Below, one piece after another: positions 2,135-5,096 of a stretch of 5,096 bases of DNA. The first letter of the stretch is position 1, and each line of letters opens with the position of its first letter. A program made the translations under genes and the position numbers. Origin of the DNA: Nitrospinota bacterium (GTDB lineage Bacteria > Nitrospirota > Nitrospiria > Nitrospirales > UBA8639); contig JADFRB010000186.1 of NCBI GenBank assembly GCA_022561525.1, forward strand, positions 1 through 5,096, given 5' to 3'. Under the pieces are notes generated by a model. It was not told where the DNA came from, searched no databases, and saw nothing but the letters and a program-made list of their open reading frames with translations.

Positions 2135-2436
2135 CTTTTTGCACCTATGGCCTTTAAGGTTTGCAAAGCTTGGAAAAGCAGGATACCAAAAATGAGTTCT
2201 TTCGCCTAGTCGGTAATCTTCAGAAGTTTGGGGGGGGGTATTGGCCATTCTTTAAATTTCTGGGTTTCGTCCCCGCCGACTGTCTTGTCATTTCGAACGG
2301 AGTGAGAAATCTAAGTCAGGGGAAGGCAGAGATTTCTCCTAAGGGTCGAAATGACAAGAGGAGGGGAGGGGGACTTAAGGACGATCAGCTATGGTTTTTA
2401 CCAATGCTTTGTCGGAAGAACCAGAAATATTTGGCG
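2135..2436. other. Intergenic region between the kinase gene end and the DUF433 start
   Basis: No gene is supported here. The stretch must hold the promoter of the DUF433/DUF5615 operon and the 3' end of the two-component operon, both on the minus strand. I found neither a clear -35/-10 pair (TATCCT at 2189-2184 lacks a matching -35) nor a stem followed by a U-tract. It contains a run of nine G at 2230-2238 and the 75-bp inverted repeat at 2284-2358. A plus-strand open frame (2161-2550) runs across the repeat and into the antisense of the kinase, and is not a credible gene. Confidence 0.5.
2284..2358. repeat. 75-bp inverted-repeat element (CTTGTCATTTCGA arms)
   Basis: The outer arms CTTGTCATTTCGA (2284-2296) and TCGAAATGACAAG (2346-2358) are perfectly complementary over 13 bp. 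The inner arms GAGAAATCT (2304-2312) and AGATTTCTC (2330-2338) are perfect over 9 bp. A 7-by-7 mismatched segment separates the two blocks, and the loop is 2313-2329. The whole element is symmetric about 2321. The left half, a TCATTTCGA-ACGGAGTGAGAAATCT pattern, is of a type I recall as a common dispersed repeat that yields ERSEK-like peptides when mis-annotated. No U-tract flanks it, so terminator function is not indicated. It could still protect the 3' end of the kinase mRNA. Confidence 0.75.
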
Positions 2437-3843
2437 TTAGGCTTGGCCAAGCAGAGGAAGGAAAATGGTGAAGCGGGAGCCTTGGCCTGGGGTGCTTTCT
2501 ACCTGGATTTGGCCTTGGTGGGTTTCGGCGATCCATTTGCAAATGGCTAAGCCTAATCCTGTGCCTTTCTGGGCATGGGCGCGAGCGGTATCGGAACGAA
2601 AGAATCGGTCGAATACCAATTTTTGCTCATCGGGGCTGATGCCAATCCCATTATCCTGCACCGATATTTTGGCCATACCGTTGGCGTGCTCTAGGTTGAT
2701 TTCTACGGTGCCTTTTTCTCGAGAATACTTGACTGCGTTATCCACGATATTCAAGAAGAGTTCGCGAAGGCGCCATTCATCTCCAACCACTTGAGTCGGT
2801 TCCAGCGTTCCTAAGACGGTCTCAACCTCCCTATCCTTTCCCAGTACGATGGCTTGATGTTGAATTTCCTGAACCAATTGGTCGAGCTGGACTGGCTCTT
2901 TGGCAATCTTTATTTCCCCCAGATCGGCGCGGGATAAAAATAACAGTTCGTCAACGATCCGGCTCATACGATCAATCTCTTCGAGGTTACTTTCCAAGAC
3001 TTCACGATAGACTTCCGGGGTTCTCTCTTTTCTCAATGCTAGTTCCGTTTCCCCTTTGGTAATGGTCAATGGTGTGCGTAATTCATGTGACGCGTCAGCG
3101 CTGAATTGCCGAATTTGCCGAATGGAGGCTTCGAGGCGGGCAATCATATCGTTAAAGGTTGAGGCCAGTCGGCCAATTTCATCGGCGGAGGTCGTGTGAA
3201 TTCGTTGCGTGAGGTCTCCGGCGGCAATGCGCTGAGCCGCGAGGGTGATGGTATCGACTGGACGAAGGGCACGGCCAGCCAAAAACCATCCGCCGAACAT
3301 CGAGACAATCACAGCTAATGGAGAACCAATCAGCAGCACAAATACCAGGCGATTCAGCATTTCTTCAACAGGCCGAAGTGAGGTCCCAACTCGTAAGATA
3401 TTGACGAGGGTTTCTCCGTGCTTGATGGGATACGACAAGAGTCGAATCGAGATTCCACCTTGGAAGCGTACGGACTCATAGGTGGCTTCACCTTGTAAGG
3501 CCGCTTGCATGGCCGATTCACTTAACGGAATATTTCGAGTTGTAATGTTGGCCGATTGCAGGGTGATTTGCCCCTGAGGCCCGAATATCTGGAAAAATTT
3601 ATCCAGCAATGCGAGTTCAGGAAAGGCTTGTGCCAGGTCGTCGAGCAACAGAAATGGCCCGAATCGATGTTCTTCCAATGAGCGAGCCGCGGCCATGGCC
3701 GCGTCTTCGAGTGAGTGGTCTATTTGATCTTCTAATGCGCGAGACATAACGAGATACAAGGCGCTGGCAAACAAAATCATGATCAATGCTAAGCCGCAAC
3801 CATACCAGATGGTGAGGCGGACACGAATCGACGTGTTACTCAT
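2437..3843 (-). CDS. Two-component sensor histidine kinase, HAMP-containing, CusS-like
   Basis: This 468-residue inner-membrane kinase is the partner of the response regulator encoded upstream. Counting from ATG 3843, transmembrane 1 is ~13-32, followed by a periplasmic sensor of ~130 residues (33-165). Transmembrane 2 is ~166-190, HAMP ~188-241 (ALRPVDTITLAAQRIAAGDL) and HisKA has H253 in SADASHELRTPLT. HATPase_c spans ~355-466, with the N box LFLNIVDNAVKYS (N365, N369), G1 DNGIGI (397-402), F box FDRFFR (411-416) and G2 GTGLGLA (427-433). All catalytic motifs are intact. The layout and sensor size resemble heavy-metal (CusS/IrlS-type) kinases, but the stimulus cannot be read from sequence. 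GAAAGG (3855-3850), 6 bases before ATG 3843, sets the start. An upstream ATG at 3906 lies inside the palindrome and adds 21 implausible residues. The 174-base gap from the regulator is unusually long for such a pair. Confidence 0.93.
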   Translation of the reverse strand: MSNTSIRVRLTIWYGCGLALIMILFASALYLVMSRALEDQIDHSLEDAAMAAARSLEEHRFGPFLLLDDLAQAFPELALLDKFFQIFGPQGQITLQSANITTRNIPLSESAMQAALQGEATYESVRFQGGISIRLLSYPIKHGETLVNILRVGTSLRPVEEMLNRLVFVLLIGSPLAVIVSMFGGWFLAGRALRPVDTITLAAQRIAAGDLTQRIHTTSADEIGRLASTFNDMIARLEASIRQIRQFSADASHELRTPLTITKGETELALRKERTPEVYREVLESNLEEIDRMSRIVDELLFLSRADLGEIKIAKEPVQLDQLVQEIQHQAIVLGKDREVETVLGTLEPTQVVGDEWRLRELFLNIVDNAVKYSREKGTVEINLEHANGMAKISVQDNGIGISPDEQKLVFDRFFRSDTARAHAQKGTGLGLAICKWIAETHQGQIQVESTPGQGSRFTIFLPLLGQA

Positions 3844-3849
3844 CGGCTG

Positions 3850-3855
3850 CCTTTC
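3850..3855 (-). promoter_or_regulatory. Kinase ribosome binding site abutting the palindrome
   Basis: GAAAGG, read on the minus strand, lies 6 bases before the kinase ATG and starts directly at the first base outside the 181-bp palindrome. It decides the start at 3843. Being right at the foot of a long hairpin, it stays single-stranded when the hairpin forms, so the structure could present the site to ribosomes rather than hide it. Confidence 0.65.
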
Positions 3856-4036
3856 AGGACCTGAGAGAACATAACTTGGACATCTCGCATCCAATCTTCG
3901 GGCCATCTTTGAACGGGCCTCAATCGAAACACTCTCACCATAGCTGTGCTATGCCTCGAGTGTTTCTCAATCGTTCCGTCCAAATCCGACCCAAATCTTG
4001 GCGCGATAGTGTCCAAGTTATTTTCTCTCAGGTCCT
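3856..4036. repeat. 181-bp imperfect palindrome between regulator and kinase (MITE-like)
   Basis: Every paired position satisfies i + j = 7892, so the element is symmetric about 3946 without net gaps. Perfect blocks from outside inward are 14 bp (AGGACCTGAGAGAA 3856-3869 with 4023-4036), 11 bp (TAACTTGGACA 3872-3882 with 4010-4020), 9 bp (GAAACACTC 3926-3934 with 3958-3966) and 6 bp (CATAGC 3939-3944 with 3948-3953, 3-base loop). In the middle, roughly two thirds of positions in 3891-3919 also pair, and more G-U pairs form in the minus-strand (sense) RNA. Its right end encodes the last five codons and stop of the regulator. Its left end touches the kinase ribosome binding site. There is no transposase gene and no obvious target-site duplication. 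A MITE-like origin is inferred. Confidence 0.85.
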
Positions 4037-4695
4037 AAGGTGTACCCGCTTCCACGTATTGTGTGGATAAGATTGCGCTCGTGGCCTTTGTCAATTTTGT
4101 TGCGGAGGTAACTGATGTAGACATCGATGACATTGGTGAACGTGTCGAAATCCAAGTCCCATACATGTTCGGAAATCATAGGGCGGGTTAAGACGCGGCC
4201 GGTACTCCGCATCATATATTCGAGTAGGGCATATTCTTTGGAGGTGAGGTCTATGCGTTGGCCTGCTCTCGTGACCTCATGGGTGATCGGATTCAGAATT
4301 AAGTCATCGATTTGTAGAATGCCGGAGGTTTCGCCGCTGGCACGTCGCATCAGTGCCCGGGAACGGGCCAGCAATTCTTCGATGGCAAAGGGTTTGGTGA
4401 GGTAATCGTCGGCTCCCGCATCCAGGCCTTTCACGCGTTGATCCACTTCAGATCGTGCCGTCAAAATGAGGACGGGTGTTTTAACCTTTTCGGCACGAAT
4501 GCCTTTGAGGACTCCCAGCCCAGGAAGGTTCGGAAGCATGAGGTCGAGAATGATCAGGTCGTAATTTACCTCGCAAGCGAGGTCGCGACCTTCTACCCCA
4601 TCGGGGCACACGTCGACCGCATAGCTTTCTTCTTCCAACGCTCGTCGAATAAAGGAGGCGACTTTGGGTTCATCTTCAACAATCAGAATACGCAT
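4018..4695 (-). CDS. OmpR/PhoB-family response regulator
   Basis: This 225-residue cytoplasmic transcription factor is phosphorylated by the downstream kinase. The receiver domain (1-~118) has the acidic pocket E7/D8, phosphoacceptor D51 in LIILDLMLPNLPG, T79 and K101 in LTKPFAIEELLAR. The winged-helix DNA-binding domain spans ~129-221, with the recognition helix region FTNVIDVYISYLRNKID (186-202) and the closing hairpin IRGSGYTLGP. Length and all switch residues are normal. ATG 4695-4693 is the start because MRILIVEDEP is the classic beginning of the domain. No Shine-Dalgarno precedes it, and a -10 box ends 9 bases upstream, suggesting a leaderless transcript. The final residues GPERK and the stop codon lie inside the arm of the 181-bp palindrome. 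The target genes are unknown; autoregulation is plausible. Confidence 0.95.
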   Translation of the reverse strand: MRILIVEDEPKVASFIRRALEEESYAVDVCPDGVEGRDLACEVNYDLIILDLMLPNLPGLGVLKGIRAEKVKTPVLILTARSEVDQRVKGLDAGADDYLTKPFAIEELLARSRALMRRASGETSGILQIDDLILNPITHEVTRAGQRIDLTSKEYALLEYMMRSTGRVLTRPMISEHVWDLDFDTFTNVIDVYISYLRNKIDKGHERNLIHTIRGSGYTLGPERK

Positions 4696-4704
4696 TGTTT
4701 AAAT

Positions 4705-4732
4705 ATTATATCATGGAAGCAGAGGAGACCAA
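4705..4732 (-). promoter_or_regulatory. Extended -10 promoter of the two-component operon, likely leaderless
   Basis: On the minus strand, TATAAT (4710-4705) is preceded by TGA, giving a full extended -10 motif TGATATAAT. A partial -35, TTGGTC (4732-4727), lies 16 bases upstream. Only 9 bases (ATTTAAACA) separate the -10 from the regulator ATG, so transcription should start about 1-3 bases before, or at, the start codon. The site lies wholly in the 46-base gap after the upstream hypothetical gene, so the regulator/kinase pair has its own promoter. Confidence 0.7.
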
Positions 4733-4741
4733 GAGGCCGAC

Positions 4742-5096
4742 CTATTCCTGGGTTTTGAGGCGAAAGCCATAGCGTTTGCTGGTTAAGGCGGCCATTTTCC
4801 CGGATTTGTAATCATAATAGGCAGCCTGCCACGTGGGTTGGCCTTGATCATCAATTGTTTGGGCAGCGCAGGTGACGATTTTGTCAATGGATCGTTTTTC
4901 CTTTAAGGGGAGGGCATGCCACTTTGGACCGACATAAATCCACAACAAATTGGTCAGGCTTGAGCCATGCCCGGTATTTCGAATGCCCTTACCTCCAAGA
5001 GTCTTTAACTCGGCATGAGCGGCCTGGGAGTCACAAGTGATTGGCGCGTATTGGGTGGTCCACACCCAATAGCCAGCGGCTCCGATTAACACGAGG
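4742..5096 (-). CDS. Membrane-anchored or secreted hypothetical protein, C-terminal part
   Basis: I do not recognise this protein. The frame is open to the right edge of the window, so the true start lies outside. The first visible residues (VLIGAAGYWVW) look like the end of a signal peptide or a single N-terminal membrane helix. About 105 residues of polar, mixed alpha/beta-looking sequence follow. Notable features are two cysteines, in APITCDSQAAHAEL and KIVTCAAQTIDD, which could form a disulphide in the periplasm, an aromatic stretch LLWIYVGPKWHALPL, and a YYDYKSG turn near the end. It ends with TAG at 4744-4742. It lies 46 bases upstream of the regulator on the same strand, with the regulator promoter in between, so it may be only loosely linked. 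The open frame, composition similar to its neighbours and clean stop support a real gene. Confidence 0.6.
   Translation of the reverse strand, partial: LVLIGAAGYWVWTTQYAPITCDSQAAHAELKTLGGKGIRNTGHGSSLTNLLWIYVGPKWHALPLKEKRSIDKIVTCAAQTIDDQGQPTWQAAYYDYKSGKMAALTSKRYGFRLKTQE

Follow-up and report, generated by a model that had tools for sequence, protein, structure and literature searches.

MITEs are usually regarded as passive ends bound by the transposase of another element. A family of 24 “predicted short RNA elements” in Geobacter metallireducens is intergenic and multicopy and has the central palindrome GRCGTAGCGCTGCTACGCC, and one of its members lies between the cotranscribed dapAB and dapL (PMC2700814). 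A mobile long-stem motif, MRSC-65-2, was described in a 2024 survey whose authors leave the DNA form of the motif open (PMC11109978). Chunjie is a MITE of Geobacter uraniireducens (Chen 2008, via the review PMC10969869), and the GTAG- and CGTC-tagged palindromes (REP) are dispersed sequences of 20 to 40 bp, of which the GTAG ones are moved by tyrosine transposases (PMC3733652).

The sequence analyzed here, referred to as the window (G000:C188), is a stretch of 5,096 nucleotides of a Nitrospinota bacterium whose draft genome comprises 2.22 Mb in 387 contigs and is 64% complete. An earlier reading based on sequence only had described an imperfect palindrome at positions 3856 to 4036, and an inverted repeat search recovered it at that place, with arms of 27 nt each (3856 to 3882 and 4010 to 4036) that were 96% complementary. 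The 14-pair outer block was found as described, and the inner block contained 12 pairs after one mismatch instead of the 11 claimed. The perfect core stems of 9 bp and 6 bp were present in the minus-strand fold, and three mispairs of the plus strand (3899/3993, C/A; 3903/3989, C/A; 3912/3980, A/C) became G·U pairs on the minus strand, both as had been proposed. The extent of 181 bp applied to the palindrome and not to the element proper, which spans 3857 to 4035 (179 bp, minus strand); the outermost A and T of the palindrome are part of a 3-bp target duplication and lie outside it. The minus strand is the best-folding strand, the sense strand of the family, and the strand of the regulator-kinase transcript. 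A minus-strand transcript of 3850 to 4040, the folding of which had been suggested as a check, gave a strong fold of -113.5 kcal/mol (shuffled mean, -50.2; z = -13.5), better than the plus-strand fold of the same region at -87.5 kcal/mol (z = -11.3), with 0 of 200 shuffles as stable in either case. In the minus-strand fold, the 5' and 3' copies of GATTGA in the central symmetric internal loop are at 3967 to 3972 and 3920 to 3925, and the apical hairpin CATAGC-NNN-GCTATG is at 3939 to 3953. No Rfam family reached its gathering cutoff in the window, where the sole match was MIR2646 (19.7 bits versus 245 required); among 18 related loci, Rfam returned tRNAs elsewhere in the loci and two subthreshold miRNA models on L246 (mir-548 and MIR5638). 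Three more inverted repeats in the window (2283 to 2359, 1460 to 1512, and 1162 to 1241, with arms 80%, 89%, and 100% complementary, respectively) are possibly other dispersed repeats.

Multiple further copies were found when the host genome was searched, as the sequence-only reading had recommended. The 181-bp query produced at least 79 matches with both strands counted (the best 40 of 78 candidates were scored), BLAST within the retrieved loci of this genome produced 46 nonoverlapping pieces, a large number of which lay at contig ends, and a covariance model produced 33 full-length matches in the retrieved part of the genome. The end motif occurred 47 times in forward and 41 times in reverse orientation, versus 0 and 0 for the reversed control. 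Alignment of the flanks delimited the element as GGACCTGAGAG...CTCTCAGGTCC, 179 bp in length, between direct repeats TTA or TAA. Among 115 copies with both flanks, drawn from eight genome groups, the flanking 3-mers were identical in 74 (shuffled mean, 38.8; maximum in 2000 shuffles, 54) and not identical in 41; 72 of the 74 were TNA, and where the 3-mers were identical the duplication was nearly always TWA. The duplication of the window copy reads TTA/TGA on the minus strand, with one mismatch: the copy at 4036 to 4038 (TAA on the plus strand; TTA, a Leu codon, on the minus strand) follows the family pattern, and that at 3854 to 3856 is TCA on the plus strand and TGA on the minus strand.

The palindrome is thus a single member of a dispersed family of 179-bp repeats that is MITE-like. 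Its size and ends are those of a MITE (less than about 500 bp, with terminal inverted repeats): the 26-bp arms, with one mismatch, lie at 3857 to 3882 on the kinase side, a boundary taken from the comparison of copies, and at 4010 to 4035 on the regulator side. It shares with MITEs a target-site duplication (74/115 copies), a multicopy, dispersed distribution with insertion polymorphism (copies in its own genome and an empty site in relatives), and a lack of coding capacity, as no frame was open through all copies in any multicopy group; sense frame 2 was open through the element in 17 of the 33 copies of its own genome. The idea that the ends form a three-frame stop trap was rejected, with a median distance of 146 nt to stops in all three frames.

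The element lies between a response regulator gene (4018 to 4695, minus strand; Response_reg and Trans_reg_C; 225 amino acids), whose best named relatives were Nitrospira sp. and Nitrospirota records, and a histidine kinase gene (2437 to 3843, minus strand; HAMP, HisKA, and HATPase_c; 468 amino acids), whose start is backed by relatives. As the sequence-only reading had noted, the last five codons and the stop of the regulator are inside the element; the regulator-side terminal repeat encodes GPERK and the stop, and this sequence has replaced the regulator's C terminus. Beyond the element, read after the target duplication, the displaced regulator terminus survives as a remnant (AAG GCA GCC GAT GAG TAA; 3838 to 3855, minus strand) that is comparable to KAADA* in G002 and holds both GAAAGG and the kinase ATG, with the ATG at 3843 to 3841 and GAAAGG six bases upstream of it. 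Two genomes of the same genus have an empty site, where the regulator, ending in YTLKAIDG* in G001 and in YTIKAADA* in G002, has an 8-nt overlap with the kinase ATG. These empty sites and the remnant place the insertion point at the Leu codon TTA, after which the element now sits, with GPERK and the stop supplied by the element. The regulator stop and kinase start of the window are 174 nt apart. The element model had no match at this gene pair in any of the 20 loci of relatives. The expectation that the two genes normally lie close was borne out by the overlaps in G001 and G002 and did not hold in 4 of the 20 relatives' loci (L049, L051, L132, and L145), in which the gap was roughly 50 to 100 nt. 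With many copies, a 3-bp duplication in most of them, and the empty site in same-genus relatives, the suggestion of a MITE-like element inserted at the regulator 3' end was well founded; the two observations on which a mobile origin had been made to depend, other copies and presence or absence among relatives, both came out in its favor.

Other features of the window were recorded. The kinase frame is open upstream into the element as far as an ATG at 3906 (window 2437 to 3906), and automated annotation might for that reason report a 489-amino-acid kinase starting inside the element. Two small gene pairs resemble toxin-antitoxin modules, one at 435 to 1056 (FitA-like RHH and PIN) and one at 1635 to 2248 (DUF433 and DUF5615/PIN_10).

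Relatives of the element were found in other genomes. The DNA query matched 8 of the 395 phylum-group genomes; five of the 8 belong to other families, with 70 to 85% identity located mostly in the interior. G063, a phylum-group genome from another family, had 40 scored matches with other ends and the same interior. A covariance model (R1) built from 23 sequences (alignment A1), with a structure of 69 pairs, matched 22 of the 395 genomes, several of them weakly (up to six candidates were scored per genome), and seven of these 22 had supplied rows to R1. Among 50 named genomes from other clades, R1 matched three, two of them strongly (Geobacter sp. UBA698 and Trichlorobacter thiogenes). In the Geobacter/Trichlorobacter order, 67 of 141 genomes were matched. 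Weak matches of about 33 to 55 bits (for example, those in G395, G283, G401, G245, G257, G160, G301, and G077) share chiefly the apical hairpin with the element, as was seen in eight weakly matching genomes, and were not counted as full members, because a long hairpin of unrelated sequence (the Chunjie-like insert described below) scores 23 bits. Locus L295 (37 bits) was without the element architecture, and its membership is doubtful. Another palindrome family (AGAACCTGTCTCAAAATTGATTC...) was observed in phylum-group genomes (L275, L292, L277, L278, L280, L282, and L283); its members share the apical hairpin CCGGAGGCGTAGC-NNN-GCTACGTTGAGGA with the element, and the two perhaps belong to a wider superfamily.

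End-motif searches of 40 + 5 + 4 genomes found no autonomous partner with the same ends; pairs of end motifs were almost always about 165 nt apart, the spacing of single MITEs. Three wider pairs were rejected as partners: in L042, the single case of paired ends around a gene, nested inserts contain a DDE_3 transposase that is bounded by its own ends, in L036 the pair encloses a nested insert, and in L243 (352 bp) it encloses the same nested repeat. This second palindromic repeat, CCTAGAAACNGCAGTTGG...CCAACTGCNGTTTCTAGG, was nested in element copies in L036 (1186 to 1620), L042 (3554 to 4940), L243 (1456 to 1807), and L039 (74), and its first half also flanked copies in L020, L021, and L022; the nesting and the flanking halves together indicate insertion of one family into the other or recombination between them. 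The DDE_3 transposase (Pfam) inside the nested repeat of L042 (3624 to 4727) has its own ends, GTGTAGTGTCCTAAACT, and is one that we take to be IS630-like. Between two element pieces in L036, an ORF of 318 amino acids (181 to 1137) appeared by eye to be an IS1595-type transposase. The element was likely put at the window site by a transposase encoded elsewhere; because of the terminal inverted repeats and the 3-bp duplication, the mobilizer would be of the DDE type, acting in trans.

Conservation of the fold was confined to one strand. In all 117 full-length copies the same strand folded better (group medians, 20 to 37 kcal/mol), a tally that does not amount to 117 independent events, since the copies share descent. 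A second alignment (A3, made with MAFFT) joined the window to 32 copies of the Geobacter order from outside the building set of R1, these rows being top scorers. Interior G·U and A·C pairs stood at 147:14 in A1 and 198:10 in A3 without the window, and among one-sided departures from Watson-Crick columns the ratios were only 30:13 in A1 and 59:7 in A3; five A1 rows (L246, L253, L259, L260, and L263) had been oriented by lower energy. Of the 117 copies, 103 had two or more GATTGA motifs on the sense strand, and none had the motif on the antisense strand. These results support conservation of a structure on the strand that had been named from the sequence, the minus strand, and a predicted fold conserved on one strand only probably works as RNA.

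Covariation, which had been proposed as the test of a selected RNA structure, was present in both alignments. In A1, 92.0% of cells were paired and both sides had changed in 45 of the 69 pairs, with none of 500 shuffles reaching any measure and slid structures pairing 33 to 51%; in A3, the corresponding values were 93.1% and 46 of 69 pairs (0 of 500 shuffles; slid structures, 34 to 46%). In the interior helices, both sides had changed in 25 of 44 pairs in A1 and in 24 of 44 in A3 (helices 2 to 4), so the covariation is more than a matching of ends. The symmetric loops between helices were GA/GA in 46 and in 32 of 55 rows, the central loop was GATTGA/GATTGA in 47, and the loop near the tip was CA/GA in 31 and GA/GA in 15. 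In our reading of the modeled structure, the GA/GA loops would be tandem G·A pairs and the center would consist of G·A, U·U, and G·A pairs.

The explanation preferred here, with reasonable confidence, is that of a short noncoding repeat that is likely moved by a transposase and probably carries a structured RNA, and whose arrival at the window site would have abolished coupling and lowered the kinase. As modeled, the family is probably a superfamily of MITEs in which a conserved RNA is encoded, and not a plain MITE. Since the fold is on one strand and copies are unbiased in orientation to neighboring genes (see below), the strand appears to matter to the element and not to its neighbors; the fold would be kept because the RNA, not duplex DNA, serves the element or acts in trans. 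As a first guess, RNase III may cut read-through transcripts in their long terminal stems and thereby free the interior hairpin; the G·A and U·U internal loops of that hairpin would resist dicing. A tentative, more specific version is that of a bacterial DNA transposon family, with a nonautonomous element, whose ends, and hence transposase, have been swapped between lineages and whose conserved RNA acts in trans, either in mobilizing and protecting the element or as a host-bound regulator; this action would be why the element is kept in Nitrospirota and the Geobacter order. The RNA would then be a ladder of predicted 9-bp stems separated by tandem G·A and GAUUGA/GAUUGA loops, on one strand. 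If this is true, the family would define a new transposon class, having TIRs and bearing an RNA, that is separate from IS200/IS605, IS110, and group II introns.

The one-strand fold could also be that of single-stranded DNA, recognized as a hairpin on the lagging strand or during transposition, which we consider rather unlikely. G·T and tandem G·A pairs are also tolerated in DNA, an orientation unbiased to flanking genes is expected if transcription is irrelevant, and for MRSC-65-2, a similar mobile motif, the DNA form was left open (PMC11109978). Against this explanation, there was no clear replication-strand bias in G503, where 9 of 13 listed copies lay on one strand (not significant, with the origin assumed at position 1). 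Terminal inverted repeats with a 3-bp duplication, moreover, fit a DDE-type and not a single-strand, IS200/IS605-like transposase.

Passive inheritance is unlikely to account for the palindrome and its one-strand fold, although a plain MITE with an unselected interior, copied from a founder, would give near-identical copies within subfamilies, as in G063 (94 to 100% identity to the subfamily query), and many copies must be recent. Across subfamilies, however, the interior was more conserved than the ends (mean pairwise identity, 0.81 versus 0.54 in A3 and 0.72 versus 0.64 in A1), the reverse of what is expected for ends bound by a transposase, and the arms covary within the interior helices, as in the 24 double changes of A3.

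Gene context, judged with a crude gene caller made for this analysis, showed no preference for either orientation. Between tandem genes, 38 copies were sense and 32 antisense (P = 0.55), and where both genes were within 100 bp, 22 were sense and 17 antisense; the fold is therefore probably not kept for regulating host operons, and orientation bias was discarded as a sign of a host cis function. In the element's own genome, the close tandem context gave 9 sense and 3 antisense copies, which is suggestive at most (P = 0.15, not significant). It is quite unlikely, then, that the host recruited the element as a regulatory device, with RNase III processing or transcript stability setting the regulator-to-kinase ratio, as the sequence-only reading had ventured. 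That view could draw on the sense orientation in the window operon, the strong hairpin, the 9 and 3 copies just given, and the RNase III cleavage of Correia MITEs at the inverted repeats (PMC10969869), but the 38-to-32 orientation and the absence of the element at this site in 20 relatives' loci speak against it. Gene 3' ends facing copies had their stop in the duplicated TWA in 25 of 108 cases and inside the terminal repeat in 13 of 108, counts made with no null model and from which no preference is claimed; the arrangement in the window is accordingly a common one for the element. An intrinsic terminator or attenuator of the operon is very improbable. A large hairpin does lie downstream of a stop codon, and a scan of 3700 to 4800 found two weak terminator-like sites (0.9 expected), but both were on the plus strand, and the operon strand (minus) had none at the element. 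A sigma-70 promoter scan likewise gave one promoter-like site (1.2 expected) and none on the operon strand at the element.

For the preferred reading of a transposed repeat with a structured RNA, the predicted consequence at the window site is uncoupled, lower kinase synthesis. The insertion would have removed the last codons of the regulator, ended its overlap with the kinase start, and added 174 nt of hairpin. Termination-reinitiation would be abolished, and the kinase would be translated solely from its own GAAAGG, below its former level. In tested Escherichia coli pairs, a spacing of 38 nt cut reinitiation by 80 to 90% or abolished it (PMC10666635), and lower kinase output is predicted because the separation here is 174 nt; synthetic constructs cited in the same source kept coupling over 73 to 850 nt. 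The site is a natural experiment on the separation of a translationally coupled regulator-kinase pair. More generally, this family has variable ends and an interior that has stayed conserved in two phylum-level groups, with covarying arms and a one-strand fold despite copies lying in either orientation, which raises the testable question of whether a MITE can have a working RNA, and what that RNA binds.

Compared with known systems, the element resembles REP sequences (GTAG/CGTC) in being a dispersed palindromic repeat and differs from them in its 179-bp length, long inverted repeats, and 3-bp duplication. Identity with REP was rejected, as the element is a palindrome over its full 179 bp and not a stem-loop of 20 to 40 bp with an unpaired tetranucleotide tag. 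The target duplication of Correia elements is TA, and no core conserved across phyla is known among them; the element, with a 3-bp TWA duplication, is set apart from them by that duplication. Correia elements (CREE, Neisseria) are similar in being MITEs near genes, and RNase III cuts their transcripts at the inverted repeats (PMC10969869).

Chunjie shares with the element the insertion of a MITE within an operon (PMC10969869). In the 5,136,364-bp chromosome of G503, a 235-bp insert with a 9-bp duplication (L350, 5776 to 6010) was found in one of two near-identical phoU operons; it fits the published Chunjie-1 and is taken to be that element. This presumed Chunjie-1 differs from the element in its ends (CAGCGTTGTCC), its 9-bp duplication, and its lack of the conserved core, and R1 gave it 23 bits on one strand and 21 bits on the other, from the outer stem alone. 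Identity of the element with Chunjie was rejected because both terminal and interior sequences are unlike those of this insert. MRSC-65-2 is like the element in having one long covarying stem and dozens of copies per genome and in having been read as selfish, but its printed signature is a repeated UYCCGG (PMC11109978), which occurred two or more times on one strand in 0 of 117 element copies.

In the main text of open-licence full-text articles, no description of the element was found beyond the G. metallireducens family, and the portions of that report describing the family make no mention of inverted repeats, target duplication, covariation, strand specificity, or Nitrospirota (PMC2700814). 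With up to 3 mismatches allowed, the GRCGTAGCGCTGCTACGCC 19-mer was present in 25 of the 32 Geobacter-order copies, on their antisense strand, versus 0 of 11,700 shuffles, and in 0 of the 33 copies of the element's own genome. Judged by this sequence match, the 24 copies of G. metallireducens are probably members of the element's superfamily, which would give an identity to the “predicted short RNA elements” known in Geobacter since 2009.
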